DNA of 15,344 nt from an uncultured Rubrobacteraceae bacterium. GTDB taxonomy: Bacteria; Actinomycetota; Rubrobacteria; Rubrobacterales; Rubrobacteraceae. Positions 178 to 12,117 of the stretch are shown here, piece by piece. The position numbers and the translations under genes were made by a program. The notes beneath the pieces were generated by a model. That model searched no databases and had not been told where the DNA came from. It saw only the letters and a program-made list of their open reading frames with translations. Position 1 is the stretch's first letter; the number at the start of each line of letters is the position of its first letter. The stretch lies in assembly GCA_902805985.1 (NCBI GenBank), contig CADCUW010000321.1, positions 1-15,344 of the forward strand, given 5' to 3'.

Positions 178-238
178 GTTAAAGGTCCGTTTCTGGGTCG
201 TTAAGGTCGCCGACGGATTTCTGTAAGGTTTCTGTTAA
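178..238 (-). promoter_or_regulatory. Array 1: six-step 11-bp-phased OmpR/PhoB-type boxes
   Basis: On plus, GTTAA (178), GTTTC (189), GTTAA (200), a poor unit (212), GTAAG (223) and GTTAA (234) follow at steps of 11, 11, 12, 11 and 11 bp. The last two units lie in near-identical TTCTGTAAGG / TTCTGTTAAGG repeats, close to the E. coli Pho-box half-site CTGTCAT. Read on minus they contain TTAACA and CTTACA, as in Bacillus PhoP boxes. The orientation points to the minus gene starting at 106 or 136, with a -10-like TAACGT at 151-156, 21 nt beyond the nearest box. The divergent permease at 350 could also be affected. TTAAC-n6-GAAAC-n6-TTAAC on minus also resembles a GlnR box, so the identity of the regulator is open. 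Confidence 0.6.
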
Positions 239-349
239 GGACCGCGGCGCGGGACGTCCTCCGGTCCCCGGCGTGGTAGGTTTCGCCGTTGTGCGCGCAG
301 CCCTCACCACAAAGCTGGGCCCCGCTTGCAACGACGCGACAGGAGCCTG

Positions 350-1402
350 GTGACGGGGGCGACTCTTACCGACCGGGGGCTCTTGAGGGCCGTGTTGGTG
401 GGCTTCGCGCTGCTCGCCGCGTGGCGCTTCGCGGCGGCGGTCGCCACCGTGTCCCTGCTGCTCGCGACGGCGCTCCTGCTCGCGGTGGCTCTCTCGGCGC
501 CGGTCGAGGCATTGCACCGGCGGAAGATCCCGAGGCCCGCCGCGGTGGTGGCGATCGTCGCGCTCGTCCTCGTCGTTCTCGGCGTCGCCGGGTACCTGCT
601 TCTGCCGGTTCTCGTCCGGGAGGTGGCGTTGCTCGTTTCGTCGCTGCCGGACGCGCTGCAGCAGCTCGGGGACCGGGCGCGGGAGCTCGCGAACAGGCTG
701 GGTGTCCAGATCGGGGGCGGGAGCAGCGGGATCTCGCCGCAGACCATCGCCAGCGCCGCCCGCAGGGTCATCGGGGGCCTCCTCGGCCTCTTCGGCGGCC
801 TGGCCTCCCTCTTCACAGCCCTCCTGGTCCTGCTGTTCGTGCCCCTGTATCTGACGGCGATGCCAGAACCGGTGGTGGGGTGGTTGGTCAGACTCGTCCC
901 GCCGGACGGCAGGTCCACGGCGCGGAGCATCCTCTCCGAATCGCGCGACAGCCTGCTCGGCTGGCTCAAGGGGCGGCTCTTCTCGATGTTCGTCGTCGGC
1001 GTACTCGCAGCGGTAGCCCTCTACCTCATAGGCGTGCCGGGCGCGCTCTTTCTCGGTCTCTTCTCCGGGCTCGTCGCCTTTGTCCCGATAATCGGGTCCG
1101 TGGTCGGGGCGGTCCCGCCGCTATTTCTGGCCTTCGCCGGCAACCCCTGGGACGTTTTGTGGGTGCTGCTGGCCTTCGTCGCCATCCAGCAGGTAGAGAG
1201 CAACCTCCTGACACCCCTCGTGATGCGGAAGGCCATCTCCCTCCACCCGGTCGTGGTCATAGCCTCCGTCACGGTGGCGGGCGCGGCGTTCGGAGTCCTT
1301 GGCGCGCTGCTCGCCGTGCCGGCAGCGGTCGTGGGCGACGTCCTTATCAGGAGGCTGTGGTTCGAACGGGTGGAGAGGAACGGTGGGAATGATGTCCCCT
1401 AG
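350..1402 (+). CDS. AI-2E family transporter (PF01594-type integral membrane permease)
   Basis: The 350-residue protein has the family's usual length and layout: hydrophobic segments near residues 11-50, a long one at about 65-90, an amphipathic middle region (95-140), then a block of membrane helices from about 145 to the C-terminus. Family-typical stretches are VPIIGSVVGAVPP (245-257), QQVESNLLTPLVM (280-292) and GALLAVPAAVV near 318-328. Members were named for autoinducer-2 export, but many act in Na+/H+ antiport or have no known substrate, so the substrate is not assigned. The GTG at 350 follows AGGAG with a short 4-nt gap; a TTG at 326 would add eight residues but lacks a ribosome site. 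The stop overlaps that of the convergent channel gene. Family identification is firm; the start is moderate. Confidence 0.88.
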   Translation: MTGATLTDRGLLRAVLVGFALLAAWRFAAAVATVSLLLATALLLAVALSAPVEALHRRKIPRPAAVVAIVALVLVVLGVAGYLLLPVLVREVALLVSSLPDALQQLGDRARELANRLGVQIGGGSSGISPQTIASAARRVIGGLLGLFGGLASLFTALLVLLFVPLYLTAMPEPVVGWLVRLVPPDGRSTARSILSESRDSLLGWLKGRLFSMFVVGVLAAVALYLIGVPGALFLGLFSGLVAFVPIIGSVVGAVPPLFLAFAGNPWDVLWVLLAFVAIQQVESNLLTPLVMRKAISLHPVVVIASVTVAGAAFGVLGALLAVPAAVVGDVLIRRLWFERVERNGGNDVP

Positions 1403-2199
1403 CGTCGCGCCCGGTCGAGGATGCCGCGAAGGGTCTCGAGCTCTTCCCCGCTCAAGGTGACGCCGTCGCCCTGCCGGGCCCTCTTCTGGGTTCGTTGCCC
1501 GGCGTCGAGGCCGACGAGGACGGAGGCTATCGAGGCTATAAAGTACGAGAAGATGCCGACGGCGTAGAGCATGAGCGCGAAGCCGAGGGCGCGCCCGCCG
1601 GCGGTGACGGGGTAGAGCTCGCTGCCCACGGTCGTGACGAGGGCGCCGGACCACCAGAGCGCGTCGCCAAAGTTCTCTATCGTCGCGTCCCGGGCGTCGG
1701 CCTCTAGCACGAGCCCCGCGGAGGCGCCGATGAGAATCACCAGGACGGAGATCAGGGCGAGCTGGCCGAGCCTACGGCGCCTCAGGATGGTCACCGCGGC
1801 CCCGGAGCCCCGCCCGCCGAAGACGAGCAACCGGAAGACGGGCAGGGCACGGGTCGCCCTGAGGATCTGGAGCACCTTCAGAAAACGCAGGAATGGGACC
1901 GCCAGGATCAAGACGTCCAGCCAGTTGCGCCTGAGGTACTCCCGCTTGACGGGAGCCAGCGCGAACTTGGCCGCGAACTCGACGAAGAAGAGTGCCCACA
2001 ACGACCAGCCGAGCAGGACGAGCCTCCCGCGCCACGGACCCGCCACCTCCCCGCTAAGCTCCAGCACGGCCACGAGGACCATCACCACCGAGGCGAGGGC
2101 GAGCGGCACGTCCAGGTAGCGGTCCAGCCGCTCCCGCATCTCTTCCCTCCATGGACGATCTTCCTTCGGCCGCCCGTCCCCCGCGTCACCTGTTCCCAT
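1399..2199 (-). CDS. Voltage-gated-like ion channel with atypical pore filter
   Basis: This 266-residue membrane protein has the six-helix plan of a single-domain cation channel. S1 is at about 32-50 and S2 at 60-82 (FFVEFAAKFAL). S3 is near 93-102 and is followed by an Arg/Lys-spaced S4 (FLRFLKVLQILRATRALPVFR, 103-123). S5 is at about 146-166, the pore loop at 175-197 (FGDALWWSGALVTTVG) and S6 at 203-230. The filter reads TTVGSELYP (189-197) where potassium channels have TVGYGD, so TVG is kept but the YGD part is changed. The start is secure: ATG preceded by GGGAGG with a 6-nt gap. It ends tail-to-tail against the upstream permease. It may be co-transcribed with the ZIP-like gene 72 nt upstream. 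Ion selectivity cannot be read from sequence alone. Confidence 0.85.
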   Translation of the reverse strand: MGTGDAGDGRPKEDRPWREEMRERLDRYLDVPLALASVVMVLVAVLELSGEVAGPWRGRLVLLGWSLWALFFVEFAAKFALAPVKREYLRRNWLDVLILAVPFLRFLKVLQILRATRALPVFRLLVFGGRGSGAAVTILRRRRLGQLALISVLVILIGASAGLVLEADARDATIENFGDALWWSGALVTTVGSELYPVTAGGRALGFALMLYAVGIFSYFIASIASVLVGLDAGQRTQKRARQGDGVTLSGEELETLRGILDRARR

Positions 2200-2246
2200 G
2201 CCGATCCTCCCGCGTCTTCAGAGCGCCCGGGCACCCCCGCGTACCC

Positions 2247-2272
2247 GATGGGGCCTCCCGATGGGGCCTCCC
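2247..2272. repeat. Exact tandem duplication of a 13-bp unit
   Basis: GATGGGGCCTCCC occurs twice without a gap (2247-2259 and 2260-2272). The second copy runs into the stop codon of the ZIP-like gene (CTA on plus at 2272-2274). It looks like recent replication slippage; no function is apparent. Confidence 0.9.
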
Positions 2273-3012
2273 TAGAAGGCTAGCAGCAGCACGACCGAGT
2301 AGAGGGTGGCGTCCAGCGCGAAGCCCCAGAACCGGCTCTCGCGCTCCTCGGGCAACTCCTCCTTGAGCACGTTCATCACCACGCCGCCTGCCAAAAAGGC
2401 GAAGAGCACGGCCAGGGCGGCATCCGAGGTCTTGGACACGAGCCCCACGGCCCAGCCCGCCACCGCCGCCGCCGCCAGCACCCACCTCCTGGCCCGGTCG
2501 TAGGCGCCCTTGTGGTCCTCGCGCAACCCGAAGTCGTTCACGACGAAGTGGACCCCCATCGTAAAGGCGAAGAGGACGAGGCTGCCGAGCCCCGGCTCCT
2601 CGCGGTGGAGTATCAGGTAGCCGATAAGAGCGTTGTACAGTCCAAACGAGCCCACGTGCAGCCAGAAGACGCCCGGCCCGGTGGCGTCGACCCTGCCCGT
2701 CAGCCGCCTTCTCCCGCGCGCGAGCTTTGCGGCCCGCTCCAGTCCGTAGAAAGCAGCAAGCCCGGCGAGCGCCACGAGGTAGACGTGGTACTCGAGAAAG
2801 GAGAACGTCTCCCCCGGTGCCCGGCGGATCGTCTCCTGCTCCTCGGCGAGGTCGGGCATGAGGTGGACGAAGACGTAGGCCACGGAGACGCCGCCCGCCG
2901 CGGATAGCCAGCGGCTCCGTGGGGAGGCGCTCAGGAAATGCATCCCGCCGGAGAAGAGGTGGACGAGCGACAACCCAGCCACCAAGGCGAGCGACAGTAA
3001 AGCCGACGTCAC
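2272..3012 (-). CDS. ZIP-like polytopic membrane protein, metal ligands degenerate
   Basis: The 246-residue protein has about eight hydrophobic segments: 3-22, 36-55, 74-92, 114-135, 142-163, 176-193, 199-216 and 229-246. GVSVAYVFVHLMPDLAEE (41-58) resembles the second ZIP helix, and FLAGGVVMNVLKEELPEE (206-223) resembles the C-terminal ZIP motif ending in LPE. The characteristic HxxPEG/HxxxE metal site is not intact; only HFVVND (155-160) occupies the equivalent place. It may therefore be a ZIP-fold protein with changed metal use or a different role. The start is GTG at 3012, with no good ribosome site; a weak -10-like TACAGT at 3023-3028 would make the transcript nearly leaderless. It is followed after 72 nt by the channel gene. 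Confidence 0.7.
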   Translation of the reverse strand: MTSALLSLALVAGLSLVHLFSGGMHFLSASPRSRWLSAAGGVSVAYVFVHLMPDLAEEQETIRRAPGETFSFLEYHVYLVALAGLAAFYGLERAAKLARGRRRLTGRVDATGPGVFWLHVGSFGLYNALIGYLILHREEPGLGSLVLFAFTMGVHFVVNDFGLREDHKGAYDRARRWVLAAAAVAGWAVGLVSKTSDAALAVLFAFLAGGVVMNVLKEELPEERESRFWGFALDATLYSVVLLLAF

Positions 3013-3144
3013 ACCCGTCTCGACTGTAACCCACCCCTGGCAGCGTAGACGTTCGCCATCCCCGTCGGGTCACTCCTCACCGTAGCGTCCGCCGGCCTCC
3101 TACCCTGGGCAGAAGCCCGCCAATCTCCGGCGTTTGCGTTCTGC

Positions 3145-3163
3145 GATCGCATCGGCCGCGATC
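3145..3163 (-). terminator. Possible weak stem-loop after the solute-binding protein gene
   Basis: GATCGC and GCGATC form a 6-bp stem with a 7-nt loop, just past the stop at 3170 of the upstream minus gene. There is no T-run, so termination is only suggested. Confidence 0.3.
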
Positions 3164-3169
3164 ACCCCG

Positions 3170-4549
3170 TCAGGAGGCCTGATCCACGATCTCCTGCAGC
3201 CTGTCGTCCAGCGTATTCGCGGCCTCCTTGGGCGATTTGCTGCCCTTGACGCAGGCGTTGAACTGCTCGGCCATCACGAGCGACATGTCCGAGTAGTACG
3301 GGGAGAGGGGCCTGGGGCGGGCGTTCTTTATCGCGGACTCCCCGAGGTCTATGACGGGGACCTTCTCCACCAGCTTCTCGTCGTCGTAGAGCTCTTCGAG
3401 GGTCGGCAGGAACGAGCCGTTCAGCGCCCGGTACTTCTGCTGCTCGGGGGAGGTGGCGAACTTGACGAACTCGTAGGCCGCGTCCTTCTCCTCCTCGGAG
3501 GAGGTCGCGTTCAGGTAGAAGTTCCAGCCGCCGAGGCCACTGAAGCTCTCCTCTTGCCCGGCGGCAACCGGCAGGGACGCCACACCGACCTGGTCGGGCC
3601 CGATGTTGGACTGTCCCTGCTCGCCGGCGAGCGCATACATGTAGGGCCAGTTGCGGCAGAAGACGGCCCGGCCGTTCAAAAAGGCGGCCTGGCACTCCTG
3701 CTCGGTGTAGGTCGAGACCGCCCGGGGGGCGACCCCGCTCTCGACCATGCTCCGCTCGGTAGAGAGGCCGGCTATCGCCTGCGTACCGTCTATAATCACG
3801 TCGTTCAGGTCCTGTCCGGCCAACACGTCGCCCCCGTGGGTCCAGATGTACTCGAGGCCGTTGACCGTGCCGCCCTCGTACTCCGCCGCCTGGAAGACGA
3901 ACCCGTCCTCGGCGTCCGATTCACCCGTGATCTTTGTCGCCTGCTCTTTAAGCTCCTCCCATGTCTTCGGGGGATCGGAGAAGCCCGCGTTATCCAGCAG
4001 ATCCTTCCTGTAGTAGAGCATCCCGGCGTCGGTGAACCACGGCACGCCGTACACCGCGCCCTCGTAGGTGCAAGACTCGACGGGGGCCGGCAGGAAGGCC
4101 TTGCGGTCCTCTTCGGTGAAGCGGTCGGAGAGGTCCTCGATCCAGCCGTTCGCGGCGAACTGGGCCGGCCATACGACGTCGCCGCCGATCAGGTCTATCT
4201 CCCCGCCTCCGGCCTGGAACTCGGTCTTGACCTGGTTGAAGTACTGGCCGGTGTCGGCGGCCATCACGCGGTAGTTCGCCCTGTAGCGTCCCTCGAACTT
4301 CTTGTTGAAGCGGCGCACGATCTCCTCGAGGCTCCCGGAGTTGTCCGGCCCGAAGGAAAAAGTGAACTCGGTTGCCCCGGAGCTGTTCTGGTTCCCCGAA
4401 CCGCCGCAGCCAGCGACCCCGAGCAGCGCCGCCCCCGCGAGGGCCGAGCCGCCGACCTTCAAGAAGCCCTTCCGGCTAACCCTTCCCCCCGGTACCCGCA
4501 CGGGTGGTACCCGCACGGGTTTCCTCTTGGGCGAATCGCGGTGTTGCAT
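3170..4549 (-). CDS. ABC-type solute-binding lipoprotein, family 1 (sugar-type), orphan
   Basis: The 459-residue protein begins with a basic head, a Tat-like SRKGFLK (25-31), a short hydrophobic stretch and a lipobox ending GVAGC (Cys48). It is therefore probably exported and lipid-anchored, by Tat or Sec. The mature part shows the family-1 extracellular binding-protein pattern: an opening FTFSFGPDNSG, EIDLIGGDVVWPAQFAANGWIEDLSDRF, YGVPWFTDAGMLYYRKDLLDNAG, TWEELKEQATKI and a late GGWNFYLNATSS. Trp and Tyr richness suits sugars, but the ligand is not assigned. No permease or ATPase gene adjoins it, so it must share a transporter encoded elsewhere or act otherwise. The ATG at 4549 follows AAAGGGG. 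A phased box array and a -10-like TAGGAT lie upstream. A tandem 15-bp repeat sits in the signal-peptide region. Confidence 0.9.
   Translation of the reverse strand: MQHRDSPKRKPVRVPPVRVPGGRVSRKGFLKVGGSALAGAALLGVAGCGGSGNQNSSGATEFTFSFGPDNSGSLEEIVRRFNKKFEGRYRANYRVMAADTGQYFNQVKTEFQAGGGEIDLIGGDVVWPAQFAANGWIEDLSDRFTEEDRKAFLPAPVESCTYEGAVYGVPWFTDAGMLYYRKDLLDNAGFSDPPKTWEELKEQATKITGESDAEDGFVFQAAEYEGGTVNGLEYIWTHGGDVLAGQDLNDVIIDGTQAIAGLSTERSMVESGVAPRAVSTYTEQECQAAFLNGRAVFCRNWPYMYALAGEQGQSNIGPDQVGVASLPVAAGQEESFSGLGGWNFYLNATSSEEEKDAAYEFVKFATSPEQQKYRALNGSFLPTLEELYDDEKLVEKVPVIDLGESAIKNARPRPLSPYYSDMSLVMAEQFNACVKGSKSPKEAANTLDDRLQEIVDQAS
4491..4520. repeat. Exact tandem duplication of a 15-bp unit in a signal peptide
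   Basis: GGTACCCGCACGGGT occurs twice back to back (4491-4505, 4506-4520). In the minus-strand lipoprotein it encodes the doubled VRVP element before the Tat-like motif. The unit is a multiple of three, so the frame is kept. It looks like slippage that lengthens the basic head. Confidence 0.92.
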
Positions 4550-4631
4550 GATGCCCCTTTCCGCGCCGCGCCCCTCGGCGGGCGCTCGTCGAGTCTCTGA
4601 CCGGATCCTAGGCTCCGCGTGCGTGGCGAAC

Positions 4632-4668
4632 GTTAGTTACGGCAAGCCCGTGGTAAAGAAACGGTTAA
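4632..4668 (-). promoter_or_regulatory. Array 2: four phased boxes and -10 upstream of the solute-binding lipoprotein
   Basis: GTTAG (4632), GCAAG (4642), GTAAA (4653) and GTTAA (4664) on plus are spaced 10, 11 and 11 bp. On minus they read TTAAC, TTTAC, CTTGC, CTAAC toward the lipoprotein start at 4549. A -10-like TAGGAT (4605-4610 on plus as ATCCTA) is 21 nt beyond the nearest box, which predicts a transcript start near 4598. The leader can fold a 6-bp stem (4568-4573 with 4580-4585) a few bases before the ribosome site. Confidence 0.6.
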
Positions 4669-4681
4669 CGTTTGCCGGGCA

Positions 4682-5599
4682 TCACCCCGGGCCGGAGCTC
4701 TCGAGCAAGATCTCCGTCTCCGTGCCGACCAAGGAGCCGCCTTTGGGGTCCCGGCCGCCAACGCGCAGCGTCGCCAGGCCCTCGTAGCCGGAGAACTCCA
4801 GCGTGGCCTCGAAACGGCCCCAGGCGGGGGTCCGATCGTCTGTCCGAACCATCGTCGAGGCGAGCACGTCGCGTTCGCGATCGAGCAAAGAGACGGTCAC
4901 CTGGCCCTCCAAGGGCCGGGCGTAGCCGCTCACGTCGATGGGGCTTTCGACCTCCTCCGCCTCGCGAGGCTGGAGAACCACCGATCTGTCGCCCGTGGTC
5001 GGGGGGAAACTGATCTCCTCGGGGACCCCGCGAAGGTCCAACGCCAGGCGTCCGGGTTCGGGCAACTTCGTCACCCGGTAGCGGAACTCGTGCGTGGCGA
5101 AGACGTCCGCGAAGAGCCCGCCTCCGCGGTCCCGGACGACGTAAAGTTCGGTGAGCGTGGAGCCGACGAAATCTCTGTGCGCGACACGCGTCGGCTCGAC
5201 GCCGGGGAAGCGGAGGCGGACGTAGCCCCCTTCCTCCGGGCTCTCGACGGTCCATCGCGGGACACCGGCCTGTCCGTCTTTCCCTCCGAAAACCACGATC
5301 AGGCGCTCGTAGCCATCGAAGATCTGGAACCGCACATCTTCTATCCGGTCCGCGGCCCCCACCTCCCCGCCGCTGCTCGCGCGCGAGGCCACGAAGGCGC
5401 CCTCGCCGCCCTCCGGCTCCGCCTCGTCCTCGACACTCGTTCCCTGGGCGGGGTTGGTCTCCTGCGCATCCCCTTCGGCGGGCTCCCCAGGCTTCCTGGT
5501 CGAATCCCCCCCGCCGGCACCGCAGGCCACCGCCAGCACCAGCACCACCAGGAGCGTCGCCAACGTCCGGAGCGGGGCGCCTCGGGGCTGGCTTAGCAT
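4682..5599 (-). CDS. Lipoprotein with AMIN-like and Gmad2 immunoglobulin-like domains
   Basis: The ATG at 5599 is preceded by GGAGAGG with a 7-nt gap and gives 305 residues with a clean lipoprotein signal (hydrophobic 12-25, Cys26). A longer frame running up to 5743 only adds unrelated sequence before that signal. A low-complexity Gly/Glu/Pro linker (27-84) is followed by an AMIN-like beta domain at about 85-190 (VRFQIFDGYERLIVVF to RLALDLRG), then a Gmad2-type domain at about 206-298 (SVVLQPREAEEVESPIDVSGYA, EGQVTVSLLD, WGRFEATLEF). AMIN domains usually bind cell-wall polymers. Gmad2 is known from spore-germination and other surface proteins. An exported, membrane-anchored wall-associated role is inferred. 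It is last in the six-gene run, 76 nt after the preceding gene, with a strong hairpin in the gap. Confidence 0.85.
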   Translation of the reverse strand: MLSQPRGAPLRTLATLLVVLVLAVACGAGGGDSTRKPGEPAEGDAQETNPAQGTSVEDEAEPEGGEGAFVASRASSGGEVGAADRIEDVRFQIFDGYERLIVVFGGKDGQAGVPRWTVESPEEGGYVRLRFPGVEPTRVAHRDFVGSTLTELYVVRDRGGGLFADVFATHEFRYRVTKLPEPGRLALDLRGVPEEISFPPTTGDRSVVLQPREAEEVESPIDVSGYARPLEGQVTVSLLDRERDVLASTMVRTDDRTPAWGRFEATLEFSGYEGLATLRVGGRDPKGGSLVGTETEILLESSGPG

Positions 5600-5620
5600 C
5601 GTCTTGCCTCTCCAGAGGAG

Positions 5621-5649
5621 GACGCCCGCCGGTGGTGCCGACGGGCGTC
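5621..5649 (-). terminator. Strong hairpin between two operon genes
   Basis: GACGCCCG (5621-5628) pairs with CGGGCGTC (5642-5649), and CGG/CCG extends the stem after one mismatch. It lies between the stop at 5676 and the ribosome site at 5607-5613 of the next minus gene. With no T-run it may be an attenuator, partial terminator or RNA-processing site that lowers expression of the last gene. Confidence 0.5.
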
Positions 5650-5675
5650 GATGCCGGTCCCTGGGACTCATCCGA

Positions 5676-5990
5676 TCAGTCTTCTGTGAAACGCTCGGTG
5701 GGCATGTTGCGGAACCAGCCATCCACCGCGCGGTCAAAGGCATCGCCGGGGATCACGCCCTGGCCGACGAGGAGGCCGACAAACATCGCGGCCGTGCACA
5801 GAACGACGGCGAGCATGCCGAGCCTCCTGGCGCCCAGCGCGTAGCTGGTGATCCCGAGAAAGACCCCCACCGCGCCCGTTGCCACCGAGACGAACAGGGC
5901 CCCGAGCGGGACGCAGAAGACCAGAGCGATAACGGACAGCAGGCGTCCCGCGCTCAGCCTCAGACTAGGTTGTGTCTCGTTCGCCTGCAT
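5676..5990 (-). CDS. Small membrane protein, unknown function
   Basis: The 104-residue protein has a polar N-terminus, two or three hydrophobic helices (about 15-37, 38-50 and 55-78) and a charged C-terminal tail of about 20 residues (DAFDRAVDGWFRNMPTERF). I do not recognise a family. The ATG at 5990 lies 3 nt after the protease stop, and its ribosome site (ATGAGG) is inside the protease's last codons. This arrangement strongly suggests translational coupling and a shared transcript. A role alongside the protease at the membrane, for example as partner or modulator, is only inferred from this coupling. Confidence 0.75.
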   Translation of the reverse strand: MQANETQPSLRLSAGRLLSVIALVFCVPLGALFVSVATGAVGVFLGITSYALGARRLGMLAVVLCTAAMFVGLLVGQGVIPGDAFDRAVDGWFRNMPTERFTED

Positions 5991-5993
5991 CGG

Positions 5994-7109
5994 CTACCTC
6001 ATCTCCTCGAGATCTACGGTGAACACCCGGGCGTTGCCGTCGCAGGCGACCGTGATCTCCACGGGCTCGTTGGGGTCGAACCGGCGCAGCGCCGAGAGAA
6101 GATCCCCGGTGCTGGTCACCTTCTCGCCACCGACGGCGATGATCACCCCACCGGGCTCTATGCCCGCGTCGGAGGCCGGGCCGCCGGGCGCGACGTCCGT
6201 AACGATGGCGCCGGACTCGACGGAGGTGCCGAGCTCACGCGCGGCCTCCGGCGTCAGGTCGACCAGGGAGACCCCGAGGTAGGGGTGCTCAGCCCTGCCG
6301 TTCTCGATGATCTGGTCCGCCACGTCGGTGGCGGTTGCGGCGGGGATGGCGAAGGCTATATTGACGGCCCCCGTCTGGGCGGGCGGCAGGTAGGCGACGT
6401 TGATGCCCACCACGTTGGCGTTCCGGTCCACGAGCGCCCCGCCGGAGGAGCCCGGGGAGATCGCCACGTCCGTCTGGATGAGGTCCACGAGCGCGGTCTC
6501 CTGCGAGCCGCCCGTGATCTCCGGCGGTACCTCGCGGTTGAGGCCGCTTATGATGCCGGCGGTCACGGTGGACTGGAACCCGGAGGGGCTGCCCATGGCA
6601 ACGGCAAGCTGCCCGAGGTCGAGGTCGCCGCCCCCGAAGTCCGCGGCGGGGAGGTTGTTACGGTCCACCTTTACAACCGCTATGTCCGTGTATGGGTCGG
6701 CCCCAACCACGCGGCCGGTTTCGACGGACCCGTCGGCGAAGGCCACGTTCACCGTGCGGGCGCCCCGGACCACGTGGGCGTTGGTGATAATGTGGCCGTC
6801 CTCGCGGTAGATAACGCCGCTGCCGAGGCCCTCTGCCTCCTGCGGCCCGTAGGGCGTCGTCTGGATGGAGGAGACGTTTACCTGCACCACGCTGGGCTCG
6901 ATCTCCCGGGCAACCTCCGGGACGGGGTACGAAGCGGCGCTCGTCGCGGACGCCTCACCACGGGCTTCCTGCGAAGGCTTCTGTGAGGCCTCGCCGCTCC
7001 CGCATCCCGTAGCGAGCATGCCCACGGTCAGCAGACCCGTCGCTAGCAAAACCACCACCTTTCTCCCTAGCACTCGACGCGATCTCGCGTTCAAGAACGT
7101 CTTTGTCAT
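5994..7109 (-). CDS. htrA: HtrA/DegP-type serine protease with one PDZ domain, lipid-anchored
   Basis: The 371-residue product degrades or senses misfolded envelope proteins in this family. The trypsin-like domain (about 65-265) has the triad His112 (TNAHVV), Asp142 (DPYTDIAVVKV) and Ser222 in GSSGGALV, where the usual motif is GNSGG. VAMGSPSGF and NIAFAIP are typical flanking motifs. A PDZ domain follows (about 275-367: YLGVSLVDL, GAIVTDVAPGGPASDAGIEPGGVIIAVGGEKV). The signal is hydrophobic at 18-33 and ends LATGC (Cys36), so lipid anchoring is likely. I chose the ATG at 7109 because a perfect AGGAGG lies 7 nt before it; the frame could extend 19 codons further without support. It sits in the middle of the six-gene envelope run, divergent from a sensor kinase operon, as stress proteases often are. 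Confidence 0.95.
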   Translation of the reverse strand: MTKTFLNARSRRVLGRKVVVLLATGLLTVGMLATGCGSGEASQKPSQEARGEASATSAASYPVPEVAREIEPSVVQVNVSSIQTTPYGPQEAEGLGSGVIYREDGHIITNAHVVRGARTVNVAFADGSVETGRVVGADPYTDIAVVKVDRNNLPAADFGGGDLDLGQLAVAMGSPSGFQSTVTAGIISGLNREVPPEITGGSQETALVDLIQTDVAISPGSSGGALVDRNANVVGINVAYLPPAQTGAVNIAFAIPAATATDVADQIIENGRAEHPYLGVSLVDLTPEAARELGTSVESGAIVTDVAPGGPASDAGIEPGGVIIAVGGEKVTSTGDLLSALRRFDPNEPVEITVACDGNARVFTVDLEEMR

Positions 7110-7143
7110 ATGCGATCCTCCTGTCGTTCTTGCACTGTTATGC

Positions 7144-7347
7144 CTAGCTTGCCGTCGTCTCGTCATGGCGGACGGGCTCCTTCTCGGGGAGTTCCCCCGT
7201 GGTCTCCCCGTCGTTGAGCTCTCTGGGACTCAAGGTCGTCTCCTCGCCGCTCATCACCGGCGCTTCCTCTGCCGCGGATGGTCCGTTCCCCCCGCATCCG
7301 CCAGCTGCCATGGCGAGCGCGACCAGTACGACGGTTGCTTTCCTCAT
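7144..7347 (-). CDS. Tiny lipoprotein, unknown function
   Basis: The 67-residue product has a short basic head, a hydrophobic stretch (TVVLVALAMAAG) and a cysteine followed by Gly-Gly in a lipobox-like AAGGC (Cys18). The rest (about 49 residues) is acidic and Thr/Glu/Pro-rich, probably unstructured, with no recognisable domain. The ATG is preceded by GGGAGG with a good gap. It lies 34 nt before the protease start and 20 nt after the PRC-barrel gene, within the same run. It may be a small anchor or partner for the protease, but nothing in the sequence proves this. Confidence 0.75.
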   Translation of the reverse strand: MRKATVVLVALAMAAGGCGGNGPSAAEEAPVMSGEETTLSPRELNDGETTGELPEKEPVRHDETTAS

Positions 7348-7367
7348 GCCTCATTCCTCCCGCAGGT

Positions 7368-8102
7368 TCAGATAGTTTGCTGCCGGACCCAGTACGGCGT
7401 CCGGCCGTAGTGGACATGCAACTCCGTCTCGTAGCGGCGGTCTATGACGGTCCCGGGCTCCCACCCGGGCGCGGACCGGATCTCCTCGGCCGTCAGATCC
7501 ACCTCGACCCGCCCGTCGAACGGGCTGACCCCCGAGGCCCAGTCGACAGAAACGGGCACCTTCTTGCCCGGCAGCCAGTCGCGCGTGTCCACGATTAGGT
7601 ACCGGATCTCCCAATGCCGATCGTCGTAGACGAGGTCCTCGACGTGCCCGATCGAGCGGTCCCCGCTGCGGACCGCGTAGCCTCGCACCTCCTTCGCGCT
7701 CCTGAGGTGCGGATCGCCCTCTTCCTCCCTGCCGACCTGTGGGTCGACGTACAGCGGGAAGACCGGCACGGCGCTACCCCAATAGGGGGCGGTGGCAAGG
7801 TAAGCGTAGTAGTCCGCCTCCTGTCGGGCGGAGACGGGACGGTCCGCCCCGACGGGCGGGCTCTCCCAGACCTGCTCGCGGGTGAGGCCCACCTCGACGT
7901 TGGCGGGCATAGCCTCGTTGACCCCCTCGACGAAGCCGGGGAGCATCAGGACCCGCTCTCCCGGCAGCCGGCCGCCGGTGTCGACGACCAGGTAGCGCAC
8001 GCCCCAGGTCTCGTCGTCGAAGAGGACGCCGACGACCCGCCCCGCGGGGCCGTTCTCCGCCCGAACTAGGCAGCCTTCGAGCATCTTCGTTTCGCGCAGC
8101 AC
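7368..8102 (-). CDS. Tandem PRC-barrel domain protein
   Basis: The 244-residue soluble protein is an internal duplication. Residues about 8-80 and 135-210 each hold a PRC barrel, with matching cores GRVVGVLFDDETWGVRYLVVDT and GHVEDLVYDDRHWEIRYLIVDT, each followed by LPG(E/K). The segments after the barrels also match: TAPYW (104-108) and RTPYW (234-238). PRC barrels occur in RNA-processing, photosynthetic and many stress or membrane-associated proteins; no catalytic residues are seen. The start is GTG at 8102 with GGAG about 10 nt upstream; an ATG six codons in is the alternative. There is no signal peptide, so it is probably cytoplasmic. It follows the four-TM protein by 33 nt, suggesting co-transcription. 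Confidence 0.85.
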   Translation of the reverse strand: MLRETKMLEGCLVRAENGPAGRVVGVLFDDETWGVRYLVVDTGGRLPGERVLMLPGFVEGVNEAMPANVEVGLTREQVWESPPVGADRPVSARQEADYYAYLATAPYWGSAVPVFPLYVDPQVGREEEGDPHLRSAKEVRGYAVRSGDRSIGHVEDLVYDDRHWEIRYLIVDTRDWLPGKKVPVSVDWASGVSPFDGRVEVDLTAEEIRSAPGWEPGTVIDRRYETELHVHYGRTPYWVRQQTI

Positions 8103-8135
8103 CGTGTCGGATCTCCTTCCGGTTCCGGGATACGA

Positions 8136-8597
8136 TCAGGCGTCCGGCGGTTCGCCGAGCTTGCCGCCCACGTAGCCGCCCATGAGGTTAGCCAGGAAGA
8201 GCAGCAACCCCGCCGGGAGGGCCGCGCCCGCGAACCCGAAGCCCGCCGGCGGCACGGTCACGCCCTCGGAGAAGAGCACGCCGAAGGCGGCCAGGACCAC
8301 CGTGAGCACCAGGCCGACGGCGAGGCCGATCACGGCCGTCATGGCGCCGTTGACCCCCCCGGACACCCCCGCGAGTCTGCCGGCCACGTAGCCGCCGAGC
8401 AGGTACGCGACAAAACCGGAGACGAGGGAGATCGCGACGATCGTCGCGGTGAACTCGCCCCGCTCCGCCGGTGGCCCGGCGACGGCACCGTAGAGGAACC
8501 GGAAGGCGGGGCTCAAGAGCACGCCGGCGGCGCTGGCCACGATCCAACCCAGAGCCACAGCACCCCAGCGAACACCCCGGCCCCGCGAATTCTTCAC
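8136..8597 (-). CDS. Four-TM membrane protein with repeated GGYVxGxLxG motif, unknown function
   Basis: The 153-residue protein has four hydrophobic segments (about 12-38, 50-70, 84-108 and 118-142). The second and fourth each end in a Gly-rich motif, GGYVAGRLAG (68-77) and GGYVGGKLGE (140-149), which suggests an internal two-fold repeat. It resembles small TIGR04086/YrzE-like membrane proteins, but I would not assign it firmly. I chose the GTG at 8597, preceded by GGAGG at a 10-nt gap. The frame stays open to a TTG at 8702, but that start would run through the phased regulatory boxes and has no ribosome site. It is first in the six-gene envelope run. Confidence 0.7.
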   Translation of the reverse strand: MKNSRGRGVRWGAVALGWIVASAAGVLLSPAFRFLYGAVAGPPAERGEFTATIVAISLVSGFVAYLLGGYVAGRLAGVSGGVNGAMTAVIGLAVGLVLTVVLAAFGVLFSEGVTVPPAGFGFAGAALPAGLLLFLANLMGGYVGGKLGEPPDA

Positions 8598-8654
8598 GAT
8601 CTCCGCACCTCCACGGTCCTCGCCCGCCCGACTTACCAATTGTTCGCCGGCACC

Positions 8655-8691
8655 GTTAGCCTCCGGTAAAGGGTCGTTGCGTTTCGGTAAA
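8655..8691 (-). promoter_or_regulatory. Array 3: four phased boxes between the envelope operon and the sensor kinase
   Basis: GTTAG (8655), GTAAA (8666), GTTGC (8676) and GTAAA (8687) on plus are spaced 11, 10 and 11 bp. On minus the order TTTAC, GCAAC, TTTAC, CTAAC runs toward the membrane-protein gene at 8597, matching array 2, whose last box is also CTAAC. A -10-like TAAGTC (8630-8635) lies 19 nt beyond the nearest box. The kinase start is 84 nt away on the other side, so autoregulation is possible. Confidence 0.6.
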
Positions 8692-8733
8692 GGTTTGGCC
8701 AAGATACGAGGTTTCCCGATCGTGACGAGGGCT

Positions 8734-8768
8734 TTGACGAGGAACGGCCCCTAGCGTGGGTATAGAAT
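8734..8768 (+). promoter_or_regulatory. Candidate promoter of the kinase/regulator operon, leaderless
   Basis: TATAGAAT (8761-8768) resembles a -10 element, and the kinase GTG begins 7 nt after it, about where transcription would start. TTGACG (8734-8739) looks like a -35 but is about 21-23 nt away, longer than usual. No ribosome site precedes the GTG, which fits a leaderless mRNA. Confidence 0.45.
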
Positions 8769-8774
8769 CTGCGC

Positions 8775-10496
8775 GTGGGGTTGAGGTTTCGCATATGGAT
8801 GCCGCTGGCGGCCGTGTTCATCGTGCTGCTCTCCATAGCCCTGATGTTCATCTACGGCGTGCCGGCCGTGAGGGGGCGGCTCTCCGACTCCGCCCAGAGC
8901 CTGGTCGTCAGCCAGGCGGCGGCCACGGCAGATGCGGTCTCGGGGGCGCAGGGCGGGCCCGTCCTTGGCGACGAGCTGAAGCTCGCCTCGGACTCCACGG
9001 GCGGGGAGGCGATCGTGGTCGACACCTCGGGCACGGTGGTGGCCCGCGGGGGCGACGTCGGGGGCTTCGAGCCCACGCCGGAGATGGTCGAGTCCGCCGC
9101 CCGCGGCGACCGGATGACCAGCCGCAGCGACACCGTGAGCGTGGCCGTCGCCCCCGTCGTCCGGGACGGCGTCTCCGCGGGGGGCGTGATCTTCGCCTCC
9201 GACGAGCCGCAGACGACGGCATACCAGCTCTTCTTGCGCAGCGGTTTGGAGGCGGCGGCCATAGCCTCCGTACTCGGCGGCGGCCTGATGCTGCTGCTCG
9301 CAACCCTTCTCTCGCGCAGGGTCGAGCGCCTGACGCTCGGGGCGAAGGCCATCGAGCAGGGCGACCTCTCCTCGCGCATAGAGCCGGGCTTCAACGACGA
9401 GCTGGGCAACCTGGCCCAGTCGTTCAACGCTATGGCCGAGAAGCTGCAGGACTCCTTCGTGCAACTCGAAGAGAGAAACGAGACGCTCGACGCCGTCATA
9501 AACAACCTCGGCGAGGGCGTGCTCGCCACCAACCTCGAGGGCGAGGTCATGTTCGCAAACCCGACGGCGCGCAAACTGCTCGGCATGACGCAGGAGCGGG
9601 TTAAGGACATCTGGGAACCCCAGGAGCTGCCCGACCCGTGGGAAGACCTCGACCTGCCCCGGGCCGTTTCCCGCTGCGCAGAGGAGGGCGAGTGCGGGGA
9701 GGCCAGGGTGCGGGGCGATGAGACGTTCCTACGACTCTACCTCGAAAGGATGTCCGCCTTCGACGACCACAAGGGGGGCGTGCTCGTGGTCATGCAGGAC
9801 CTCTCCGAGGGACGGCGTCTGGAGGCGAACCAGCAGCGCTTCCTCGCCAACGCCGCCCACGAGCTGAAAACCCCCATTACCACCATCCTCGGGGCCTCCG
9901 AGCTCCTGCTGACCGGCGACGAGGACGAGGAGCTCCGTCGCCGCTTCCTGAACCACATCCACTCCGAAGCGGGCCGCATGCAAAGGCTCTCCGAGACGCT
10001 TCTCAAGTTGGCGCGCACGGGCTCGGACGGGCGTGAGCCGGAACCGGAGCCCTTGGACACGGGACGGGCCGTGCGCGAGGCAGCCGGTCGCATGGGGCCG
10101 CTCGCCGAGCGGGCTGGCCTCTCGGTCCGCGTCGAGGGCGCCGGGGGACGCGTCATCGCCGACAGGGAGTGGCTCGAGCAGGCCCTCCTGATCCTGACAA
10201 ACAACGCCATCCAGCACGGGGCCGAAGGCGACGAGGTGCGGCTGGATGCTGACGGCGGCACCATCGCCGTCGAAGACGACGGTGCCGGCATCCCGGAGGA
10301 GGAGCTGCCCTACGTCTTCGAGCGCTTCTACCGGGGTGGCGACGCGTCCGGCGGTTTCGGGCTGGGGTTGCCGATCTGCAAGGAGCTGGTGCAGCGGATG
10401 GGGGGGGAGATCTCGATCTGCTCCGAAAGCGGTTCGGGGACGCGGGTGGAGATCACGCTGCCCCAGGACGACTCGCCACGAGACGGAGGAGGATGA
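8775..10496 (+). CDS. Sensor histidine kinase with PAS and HAMP domains (PhoR/VicK-like)
   Basis: The 573-residue kinase has TM1 (about 8-28), an extracytoplasmic sensor region (30-148) and TM2 (156-179). Then come HAMP (180-232), a PAS domain (236-345) and HisKA with the phospho-acceptor His362 in AAHELKTPI. The ATPase domain has Asn476/477 (LTNNAIQHG), DDGAGIP (501-507), the F-box-like YVFERFYRG and GGFGLGLPI (526-534). It should autophosphorylate and pass the phosphate to the regulator encoded 1 nt downstream. Domain order matches PhoR/WalK-type kinases, but the signal is unknown. The GTG start lacks a ribosome site and is probably leaderless; an ATG at 8799 would cut into TM1. It is divergent from the protease run. 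Confidence 0.95.
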   Translation: MGLRFRIWMPLAAVFIVLLSIALMFIYGVPAVRGRLSDSAQSLVVSQAAATADAVSGAQGGPVLGDELKLASDSTGGEAIVVDTSGTVVARGGDVGGFEPTPEMVESAARGDRMTSRSDTVSVAVAPVVRDGVSAGGVIFASDEPQTTAYQLFLRSGLEAAAIASVLGGGLMLLLATLLSRRVERLTLGAKAIEQGDLSSRIEPGFNDELGNLAQSFNAMAEKLQDSFVQLEERNETLDAVINNLGEGVLATNLEGEVMFANPTARKLLGMTQERVKDIWEPQELPDPWEDLDLPRAVSRCAEEGECGEARVRGDETFLRLYLERMSAFDDHKGGVLVVMQDLSEGRRLEANQQRFLANAAHELKTPITTILGASELLLTGDEDEELRRRFLNHIHSEAGRMQRLSETLLKLARTGSDGREPEPEPLDTGRAVREAAGRMGPLAERAGLSVRVEGAGGRVIADREWLEQALLILTNNAIQHGAEGDEVRLDADGGTIAVEDDGAGIPEEELPYVFERFYRGGDASGGFGLGLPICKELVQRMGGEISICSESGSGTRVEITLPQDDSPRDGGG

Positions 10497-10497
10497 T

Positions 10498-11202
<705 letters not shown>

Positions 11203-11289
11203 GGGCCCTTAGAACGTCGACCCGTTCATGCGGGGGCCTCTTCCGGCTCGCGCGATCCGCGCGGGAGCCACGGGAGCGTTAGAAAGACG

Positions 11290-11321
11290 CGCGGACGGGC
11301 TCCATACGAAGCCCGTCCGCG
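11290..11321. terminator. Strong hairpin between convergent genes
   Basis: GCGGACGGGC (11291-11300) pairs perfectly with GCCCGTCCGC (11311-11320), extended by a C-G pair at 11290/11321, around a 10-nt loop. On minus it is followed by GCGTCTTTCT, so it best suits termination of the EF-hand gene, but it could also end the regulator transcript. Confidence 0.75.
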
Positions 11322-11359
11322 TCGTGGGTCCCTGATTCTGGCTCTCGATCCAGTGAGGA

Positions 11360-11833
11360 TCAGGAGGTCTGCTTATTGAACTCGTCCTCGGTTATTGCGT
11401 TATCGTTGTCGGCGTCCCAGTCGTCGTAGACGCCGGTGTCCGCTACGGACTCTTCGAATTCGCTTTCGTCCAACTCGTTGTCGTTGTCGGCGTCCCACTC
11501 GTCGTAGTCGTAGTCTTCGTAGTACGCGTTCACGCCGGCGTCGAACTCGTCGTCGTCGATGTACCCGCTGTCGTTCTCGTCCCAGCTCTCGTAGACGCCG
11601 CCGTAGAACTCGCCCTCCACAACTTCGTCGCTGCTGTCGGCGTCCCACTCGGCATAGGTGCCGTAGTCGTAGGCCCGGGTGTCGGCGTCGGCGGTCTCGG
11701 TGTCGGCCGCCTCGCTCTCGCCGCACGAGGCGAGCAGGACGGCCATCGCCATGGCCAGCAACAAGGCCCACACGGTGGTCAAGCCTCTGGATCTGGCGGC
11801 GCTTATCCCCTCGACGCTGCTTTTAGTTCTCAA
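11360..11833 (-). CDS. EF-hand calcium-binding lipoprotein
   Basis: The 157-residue protein has a basic head, a hydrophobic stretch (20-35) and a lipobox LLASC (Cys37). The acidic mature part carries four EF-hand-type loops beginning at Trp-Asp: 64-75 (DADSSDEVVEGE), 85-96 (DENDSGYIDDDE), 114-125 (DADNDNELDESE) and 140-151 (DADNDNAITEDE). All keep acidic or polar residues at positions 1, 3 and 5 and Glu at 12. Positions 7 and 9 vary, and loops 1 and 4 are the least canonical. It probably binds Ca2+ outside the membrane as sensor, buffer or adhesive. The TTG start at 11833 is supported by AAAGGAG with a good gap. A five-box array and two leader hairpins lie upstream; a strong terminator follows. 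Confidence 0.9.
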   Translation of the reverse strand: MRTKSSVEGISAARSRGLTTVWALLLAMAMAVLLASCGESEAADTETADADTRAYDYGTYAEWDADSSDEVVEGEFYGGVYESWDENDSGYIDDDEFDAGVNAYYEDYDYDEWDADNDNELDESEFEESVADTGVYDDWDADNDNAITEDEFNKQTS

Positions 11834-11868
11834 ACCTTCTCCTTTCGTCAGAACTCGCGTTCACGCGC

Positions 11869-11913
11869 AGGCCGCCGGACCCCGGCGGCCTAAGATCGGC
11901 CTTCGCGCCGATC
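11869..11913 (-). promoter_or_regulatory. Two adjacent stem-loops in the 5' leader of the EF-hand gene
   Basis: GATCGGC/GCCGATC (11894-11900 with 11907-11913) forms a 7-bp stem with a 6-nt loop. Directly beside it, AGGCCGCCGG/CCGGCGGCCT (11869-11878 with 11882-11891) forms a perfect 10-bp stem with a 3-nt loop. If transcription starts about 7 nt past the -10-like TAGAAA, the mRNA would begin with the first hairpin. They may stabilise the mRNA or act as an attenuator. Confidence 0.55.
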
Positions 11914-11935
11914 CCCTGCTTTCTACCTGCCGGAT

Positions 11936-11983
11936 GTGAAGGAGCCGTGAAGGGGCCGTAAAGCGTCGTTAGGGGCGCGCAAA
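11936..11983 (-). promoter_or_regulatory. Array 4: five phased boxes upstream of the EF-hand lipoprotein
   Basis: GTGAA (11936), GTGAA (11947), GTAAA (11958), GTTAG (11968) and GCAAA (11979) on plus are spaced 11, 11, 10 and 11 bp. On minus the nearest units read TTCAC, the core of the Streptomyces PhoP repeat GTTCACC. A -10-like TAGAAA (11920-11925) is 10 nt from the first box and 21 nt from the second. The downstream gene on minus starts at 11833. Confidence 0.62.
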
Positions 11984-12060
11984 GATGCACCCAAGTAGGA
12001 GTGAGGGCGGTTTCCCACATGTTGTGCCCGCCTTCTGGCGCAACTGGCCGGCGCCCAAAC

Positions 12061-12087
12061 GTTAAGGCGCGGTAAAGGAACGGTTAA
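12061..12087. promoter_or_regulatory. Array 5: three near-perfect phased boxes before the ABC operon
   Basis: GTTAA (12061), GTAAA (12072) and GTTAA (12083) are spaced exactly 11 bp and are the best-conserved set in the window. The array shares GTAAAGnAACGGTTAACG with array 2. It lies between the divergent EF-hand gene (minus, with array 4 about 78 bp nearer) and the ABC operon (plus), so either or both could be controlled. Orientation matches the minus-strand gene. Confidence 0.58.
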
Positions 12088-12117
12088 CGTTTCACCCGGA
12101 ACCGTGGAGGCGCCTGC

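Follow-up and report, generated by a model that had tools for sequence, protein, structure and literature searches.

The 15,344-bp stretch of DNA analysed here, the window, is one whole contig (G000:C321) of an uncultured Rubrobacteraceae bacterium, whose assembly holds 4.23 Mb in 707 contigs and is 88.6% complete. Its intergenic gaps carry five arrays of short, evenly spaced GTNAA-like units, and it encodes a sensor kinase and a response regulator of the OmpR/PhoB family. What are these arrays, and which protein reads them? Our comparison of this DNA with related genomes suggests that they are probably tandem OmpR/PhoB-type operators through which the linked regulator (10498-11202) governs an envelope/stress regulon, most of it local. 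The arrays are listed below, with scores from a matrix trained on relatives.

178..240, plus strand: array 1, six units (178, 189, 200, 212, 223, 234), score 29.4
4632..4670, plus strand: array 2, four units (4632, 4642, 4653, 4664), score 27.0
8655..8704, plus strand: array 3, four units (8655, 8666, 8676, 8687; 8655-8693) and a weak fifth, score 29.6
11936..11985, plus strand: array 4, five units (11936, 11947, 11958, 11968, 11979), of the GTGAAG type at its start, score 41.9, which counts two weak extra units reaching 12007
12061..12089, plus strand: array 5, three units (12061, 12072, 12083), score 31.9

The original prediction had described five arrays in one orientation with steps of 10-12 bp, mostly 11, and all five were found where it had placed them, on the plus strand. 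The 17 steps within arrays comprise thirteen of 11 bp, three of 10 bp and one of 12 bp. Thirteen of the 22 units read exactly GTNAA, the remaining nine being variants.

The arrays are genuine and not a product of chance. Exact GTNAA pairs at 11 bp occur five times on the plus strand of the window and never on the minus strand, while 500 dinucleotide shuffles gave a mean of 0.06 and a maximum of 2 with both strands summed. A matrix built from the window's own units scored four arrays, array 5 being apparently chained to array 4; none of 500 shuffles reached 25.3, the score of the weakest of these four, and five reached 20. Because a test with a window-trained matrix is circular, we built a second one from 259 units of other genomes only, with own-genome loci excluded. 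This matrix separated array 5 from array 4 and recovered all five arrays with scores of 27.0-41.9. The sole other match of at least 12 in the window scored 12.1 and lies on the opposite strand, overlapping array 5, and the reversed window gave no match of at least 12. Array 5 is also an exact match in the genome-wide pattern scan.

Across the 259 units, positions 1-5 carry 1.0-2.1 bits of information, position 6 carries 0.28 and positions 7-11 carry 0.04-0.23. Each 11-nt unit consists of a conserved half and a loose half, as direct-repeat operators of the OmpR/PhoB type require, and the units stand in tandem on one strand with the 11-nt period of such operators.

Operators of this type should also keep a fixed position relative to the promoter. 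The original prediction had noted -10-like hexamers 21 nt from a box, which is right in substance. TAACGT (151-156) and TAGGAT (4605-4610) lie 21 nt from the terminal boxes of arrays 1 and 2, and AACAAT (8639-8644) and TAGAAA (11920-11925) lie 10 nt from those of arrays 3 and 4, which is the same helical phase one unit nearer. We extended this to loci of the own genome and of relatives in the Rubrobacteraceae, examined around orthologous systems or array matches, with simple codon-based gene calls and an array score cutoff of 20. The midpoint was intergenic in 64 of 66 arrays, in sequence of which 82% was called coding. Reading toward the target gene, we found the best -10-like hexamer in phase, at a distance of 10, 21 or 32 nt (±1) to the terminal box, at 44 of 65 arrays (mean 12.8, maximum 23 in 2000 shuffles). 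Once 15 of the 66 arrays had been set aside for resembling others or lying close to an edge, a phased hexamer was present at 33 of the 51 non-redundant ones (mean 10.1, maximum 21 in 2000 shuffles), compared with only 8 of 51 on the opposite side of the array. A phased -10 is the pattern expected from an activator overlapping the -35 region. Streptomyces PhoP sites overlap this region at glpQ1 and glpQ2, according to the consulted parts of PMC7866108.

The regulator expected to be linked to such operators is encoded together with its kinase.

8775..10496, plus strand: sensor histidine kinase (Pfam: HAMP, PAS, HisKA, HATPase)
10498..11202, plus strand: OmpR/PhoB-family response regulator (Response_reg and Trans_reg_C), the proposed binder of the arrays

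The best PDB match of the regulator is RegX3 (2oqr), and it stays under the cutoffs of all 25 best NCBIfam models, among which MtrA is closest. The segment that we take to be its recognition helix has the core ADV[HY][VI]Q in the orthologues, whereas the Q is replaced by R or A in the aligned WalR-, PhoB- and MtrA-like paralogues. The kinase has a PDC-like extracytoplasmic sensor flanked by two helices that we take to span the membrane. The predicted structure of the entire kinase was of low quality (predicted template modelling score, pTM, 0.35), and a model of the sensor domain alone was used. This model has a PDC-like fold (predicted local distance difference test, pLDDT, 81), and its closest structure is 3cwf (template modelling score 0.70/0.79). 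The best family scores of the kinase are to PnpS, WalK and PhoR, all below the equivalog cutoffs; as a query against a collection of genome contigs, it found ten distant kinases with 28-37% identity. A -10-like TATAGAAT or TAAAAT stands about 6 nt before the kinase start (window 8761-8775; L135, L140, L192), as if the kinase mRNA were leaderless. Some relatives have two or three copies of the two-component system or close paralogues (L189 and L197 in G044; L143, L144 and L145 in G002; L141 in G009), several of them with arrays nearby.

The arrays are associated with this two-component system. Among the loci with a full-length kinase, window included, 14 of 15 have an array at most 350 bp upstream of the kinase, compared with 1 of 8 loci whose kinases have another N-terminus and align by the core only. 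These eight, which include an operon's second kinase and a kinase cut at its far end, were kept apart from the 15, as was L142, whose start is cut by a contig end. On the genome scale, we counted a three-unit pattern against a reversed control, with overlapping matches within one array counted apart. In a set of 24 genomes, chosen from 39 for a completeness of 90% or more and with the own genome added, the 16 with the regulator gave 81 matches versus 10 in the control, 20 of the 81 from G002 alone, and the 8 without it gave 12 versus 11, which is background. A survey of all 39 genomes gave 74 matches (control 0) in the 19 with the regulator and 28 (control 8) in the 20 without (Mann-Whitney p=0.001; p=0.023 when limited to genomes of 90% completeness or more). 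On the main chromosomes of two relatives the arrays also cluster beside the regulator: a 45-kb range holds 7 of the 8 array places in G042, and a 23-kb range all 3 in G006 (binomial ~1e-13 and ~1e-7, for ranges chosen post hoc and places merged by hand). The kinase loci, the clustering and the contrast between presence and absence thus bear out the association with the regulator that had been named as the local candidate. The arrays conserved in relatives are very probably binding sites of the adjacent regulator, as predicted from these patterns.

Which genes would such a regulator control? A minus-strand gene for a membrane-anchored protein lies to the left of array 1, truncated by the contig edge, and the other genes around the arrays are as follows.

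326..1402, plus strand: AI-2E family permease (PF01594)
3170..4549, minus strand: extracellular solute-binding lipoprotein (SBP; PF01547), array 2 target
4682..5743, minus strand: Gmad2-domain protein (PF10648; lipobox by eye), last of the array-3 operon
5994..7166, minus strand: HtrA/DegP-like serine protease with PDZ domain (Trypsin_2 and PDZ), array-3 operon
7368..8102, minus strand: PRC-barrel protein (PF05239), array-3 operon
8136..8558, minus strand: small membrane protein, named TM8136 here, first gene of the array-3 operon
11360..11833, minus strand: EF-hand-like acidic lipoprotein (EF-hand matches below cutoff; lipobox LLASC), target of array 4 and perhaps of array 5

Membrane stretches and lipoboxes were read by eye in the translations. 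From array 3, the minus-strand order is TM8136, for which no Pfam family matched, the PRC-barrel protein, a short frame, the HtrA-like protease (266.5 bits against a Do-family subfamily model, under its cutoff of 416.2), a small protein and the Gmad2 protein, with operon-like spacing. Array 3 sits between this operon and the plus-strand kinase-regulator pair, and array 5 between the EF-hand gene and a plus-strand ABC-2 permease gene; the AI-2E permease and an ATPase are likewise encoded on the plus strand. As originally described, four arrays precede minus-strand genes for membrane or lipid-anchored proteins, namely the edge-cut membrane protein, SBP, TM8136 and the EF-hand lipoprotein. Two unrelated secreted proteins of the calcium-binding type, an RTX protein (L187:2126-2704) and the EF-hand protein (window 11360-11833), both lie behind arrays, which may point to divalent cations. 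Elsewhere in the own genome, a strong array (L149:4259-4319, contig C385) with a score of 38.0 precedes the gene of a 177-aa protein that looks secreted and matches no Pfam family.

Arrays are kept at orthologous promoters. At the SBP genes of the window, G006 and G004, the promoters retain orthologous units together with TAGGAT, TAGCAT and TAACAT at 21 nt, and the AI-2E permease orthologues in G004 and G006 likewise have arrays upstream. Among SBP homologues, with Rubrobacteraceae, Rubrobacter xylanophilus and R. marinus among the named relatives, the 30 loci of a longer list have arrays at these three close orthologues and a weak one (score 20.4) in G037; 26 of the 30 examined have none at a cutoff of 18, although one of these 26, the homologue in G007 with 76% identity, cannot be judged on its roughly 112 bp of upstream sequence. 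A search of 20 genomes found 22 TM8136 homologues. The ten best-scoring ones have an array (score at least 20) in the 1.5-kb upstream flank and the other 12 have none, six of these being in genomes with the regulator and six in genomes without it. One of the ten, that of R. xylanophilus, belongs to an operon in the order YflT, membrane protein, HtrA and SBP, some 300 kb away from the two-component system, and this operon has a weaker array (18.6) in the usual orientation. The original prediction had been made to depend on intergenic density, shuffled sequence and relatives; the arrays are intergenic, exceed shuffled and reversed controls, and are kept at orthologous promoters in other genera.

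Several results weigh against the linked regulator as the reader of a mostly local regulon. Array 5 has no -10-like hexamer at 10, 21 or 32 nt, and the full-length kinase locus of G037 is the only one of the 15 without an upstream array. The strong array of the R. xylanophilus HtrA operon has the opposite orientation and lacks a phased -10. The conservation counts are neither independent nor unselected, because the array-bearing TM8136 copies are the most similar ones, many loci were chosen for array or system matches and several come from close relatives. The contrast between genomes with and without the regulator is weaker in the 39-genome survey, where G047 (83% complete) has no detected regulator yet contributes 11 of the 28 matches. 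In the single-contig genomes G024 and G039, pattern matches lie far from the two-component system. The local character of the regulon, as originally proposed, therefore holds for the clusters of G006 and G042 and not for G024 and G039, where the arrays are dispersed. A loose pattern (up to three mismatches) gave 27 matches versus 19 in the control in the own genome, which is near background and suggests that the regulon there is small or poorly defined; on these counts we rejected the idea of an own genome rich in such arrays. Finally, the 11 genomes searched encode 5 to 15 OmpR-family regulators each (E<=1e-30), any of which might recognise similar repeats, and a pst array reaches 25.8 with the window matrix, so that crosstalk is possible. 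As a separate observation, G024 and G039 share an array upstream of a gene for a transporter of the major facilitator superfamily (L199:4846-4896 and L200:4694-4733), far from the system.

The regulator count and the dispersed arrays also favour the strongest alternative, in which another regulator of the genome, for example a WalR/MtrA-like or PhoB-like paralogue, is the main binder of what are genuine OmpR-type operators, and the neighbouring pair is one target among others. Array 4 adds to this, as its GTGAAG form resembles arrays beside a different regulator on the second replicon of G006 (C2, 205 kb). Six further GTGAAG-type matches were found on that replicon, and its GTGAAG arrays adjoin a separate OmpR-family pair and genes for DUF305, rhodanese-like and DUF4396 proteins. 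Array 4 may thus answer to another regulator, and arrays 4 and 5 are the least certain of the five, array 4 for its initial GTGAAG units and array 5 for want of a phased -10. GTGAAG-type 11-bp arrays on second replicons are seen at L146:7001-7029 and L147:3872-3911 (G006:C2) and at G042:C2:94453 and 95509. Ten pstS promoters have 11-bp arrays as well, two of them in genomes where the window-type regulator was not detected (G011, G012). Against a different main binder stand the clustering of arrays at the system in G006 and G042, the background level in the eight genomes without the regulator, the kinase loci, and the sixth base of the unit, which is never G in 40 core pst units and is G in 63% of the 259 system-associated units. 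We consider this alternative unlikely.

The pstS arrays raise a second alternative, that the pair is the Pho starvation system, with PhoR as kinase, PhoP as regulator and the arrays as PHO boxes. Each of the 10 pstS loci read, from 10 genomes of the family, has an upstream array (L079-L088; L152:6829-6879; the strong match L090 was not among them, and G002 has a weak match only), with window-matrix scores of 18.6-28.3. The pst array of the own genome reads GTTTAAC-ATTTAGC-AGTTTAC-TGCAAC on the coding strand, with 21 nt to TATTAT. PHO boxes consist of head-to-tail 11-nt units with 7 well and 4 less conserved bases, several per promoter, as described in the consulted parts of PMC4415409 and PMC7866108. 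The structure closest to the sensor-domain model, 3cwf, is B. subtilis PhoR according to a listing in the part of a review consulted (PMC8534201), and the family scores of the kinase point in the same direction. However, the pair misses all Pho equivalog cutoffs (PhoB 206.9/296.2, PhoR 172.4/334.2, PnpS 242.5/400), and no phosphate gene is present among the array-adjacent genes that were annotated. The pst arrays share the 11-bp geometry but form a distinct class with the words GTTAAA/GTAAAC, and occur without the regulator. The reading of the pair as a Pho system, drawn from the 10 pstS arrays, was dropped for the two genomes without a window-type regulator and the difference between units. 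We regard it as improbable, and the phosphate theme implied by the original prediction is not supported, the annotated targets being envelope/stress genes. Distinct pst arrays that occur without the regulator suggest that pst is probably under another regulator and that the window system probably responds to a non-phosphate signal.

A structural or replication-related repeat, or a curvature signal, is very improbable: helically phased A-containing words do suit DNA curvature, but the arrays are intergenic, sequence-specific at five positions, phase-locked to a -10, kept in orthologous promoters and associated with the regulator.

How does the window system compare with known ones? Like the PHO boxes of E. 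coli PhoB and Streptomyces PhoP, the window arrays have head-to-tail 11-nt units, several per promoter, and in some Streptomyces promoters the units overlap the -35 region (PMC4415409, PMC7866108, in the parts consulted). The window arrays differ from PHO boxes in their word, C-TTNAC (GTNAAG when read from the opposite strand), in having envelope/stress genes as annotated targets, and in that the same genomes also have a separate pst array. CpxR is autoregulated and has a DegP/HtrA-type protease among its targets. The window arrays mix GTAAA with GTTAA and GTGAA at CpxR-like spacing, and the array-3 operon has an HtrA-like gene. The CpxR box, GTAAA-(N)4-8-GTAAA in the consulted part of PMC5063474, has nearly the same word and spacing. 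Unlike CpxRA, however, the window regulator and kinase score far below the cutoffs (146.7/341 for CpxR, 93.4/486 for CpxA), the kinase has HAMP and PAS domains, and the arrays have 3-6 units where the CpxR box is one pair. CssRS of Streptomyces lividans, a two-component system of a Gram-positive lineage tied to HtrA-like proteases in the consulted part of PMC5157995, is likened by function only. The MtrA/RegX3/WalR family holds the closest regulators by score (RegX3 2oqr in the PDB, MtrA in NCBIfam), but equivalog cutoffs are missed for MtrAB and WalRK (MtrA 221.3/300, YycF 206.5/340, WalK 233.7/725), and the presumed recognition helix differs from that of the paralogues compared. Among the papers listed for Rubrobacter and two-component systems, none was, by title or abstract opening, about a response-regulator site in Rubrobacter.

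We then propose a mechanistic model in which the linked regulator reads the arrays. On the target strand, the unit would read C-TTNAC with an 11-nt period, forming head-to-tail operators. Dimers of the phosphorylated regulator would occupy at least two tandem units, of which the one nearest the promoter would overlap or replace the -35 element, and RNA polymerase would be brought to a -10 at a set distance of 10 or 21 nt from the last box. The analysis shows the arrays with their geometry, conservation and phase-locked -10 and their association with the regulator; we infer that the regulator binds, that it activates rather than represses, and that the signal is envelope stress. The small regulon would comprise the TM8136-PRC-HtrA-Gmad2 operon, the SBP lipoprotein, the EF-hand lipoprotein and the gene at the left of the contig, and the kinase-regulator pair, divergent from the array-3 operon, would probably be autoregulated. 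As bacterial control circuits go, this one is fairly ordinary.

In several relatives, the circuit may reach further. A sigma-70-family gene lies directly behind an array at seven loci of six relatives (G004, G006, G009, G042, G044 twice, G049), next to the orthologous two-component system or a paralogous one.

L136:11604-12485: sigma-70-family gene behind an array
L135:10217-11086: sigma-70-family gene behind an array
L186:11761-12591: sigma-70-family gene behind an array
L190:3026-3868: sigma-70-family gene behind an array
L189:1373-2164: sigma-70-family gene behind an array
L197:1495-2385: sigma-70-family gene behind an array
L141:5407-6282: sigma-70-family gene behind an array

This arrangement in six relatives suggests a cascade, into which such a gene would turn the circuit. 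The window has no sigma-70-family gene at this place, and related sigma genes are present elsewhere in the own genome.

It is tempting to speculate, although we hold this only tentatively, that one 11-bp operator grammar, an array with a -10 at 10+11k nt, serves several paralogous OmpR-family regulators in Rubrobacteraceae, which are told apart mainly by the sixth base and the unit number, and that some species have a cascade from an OmpR-type regulator to a sigma factor. The classes would then be pst (sixth base mostly A or C), envelope GTNAAG, and GTGAAG for the regulator on G006:C2.

Rubrobacter species tolerate heat, desiccation and radiation. For their relatives, the arrays supply a candidate envelope/stress circuit whose operator, regulator and targets can be tested. 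The conserved pstS arrays, distinct from those of the window, supply a candidate PHO box for the Rubrobacteraceae, and paralogous regulators with near-identical operators provide material for studying specificity. If the broader grammar is true, an envelope regulator that feeds a sigma-70-family factor in some species would represent a stress cascade running from an OmpR-type regulator to a sigma factor in a deep lineage of the actinobacteria.

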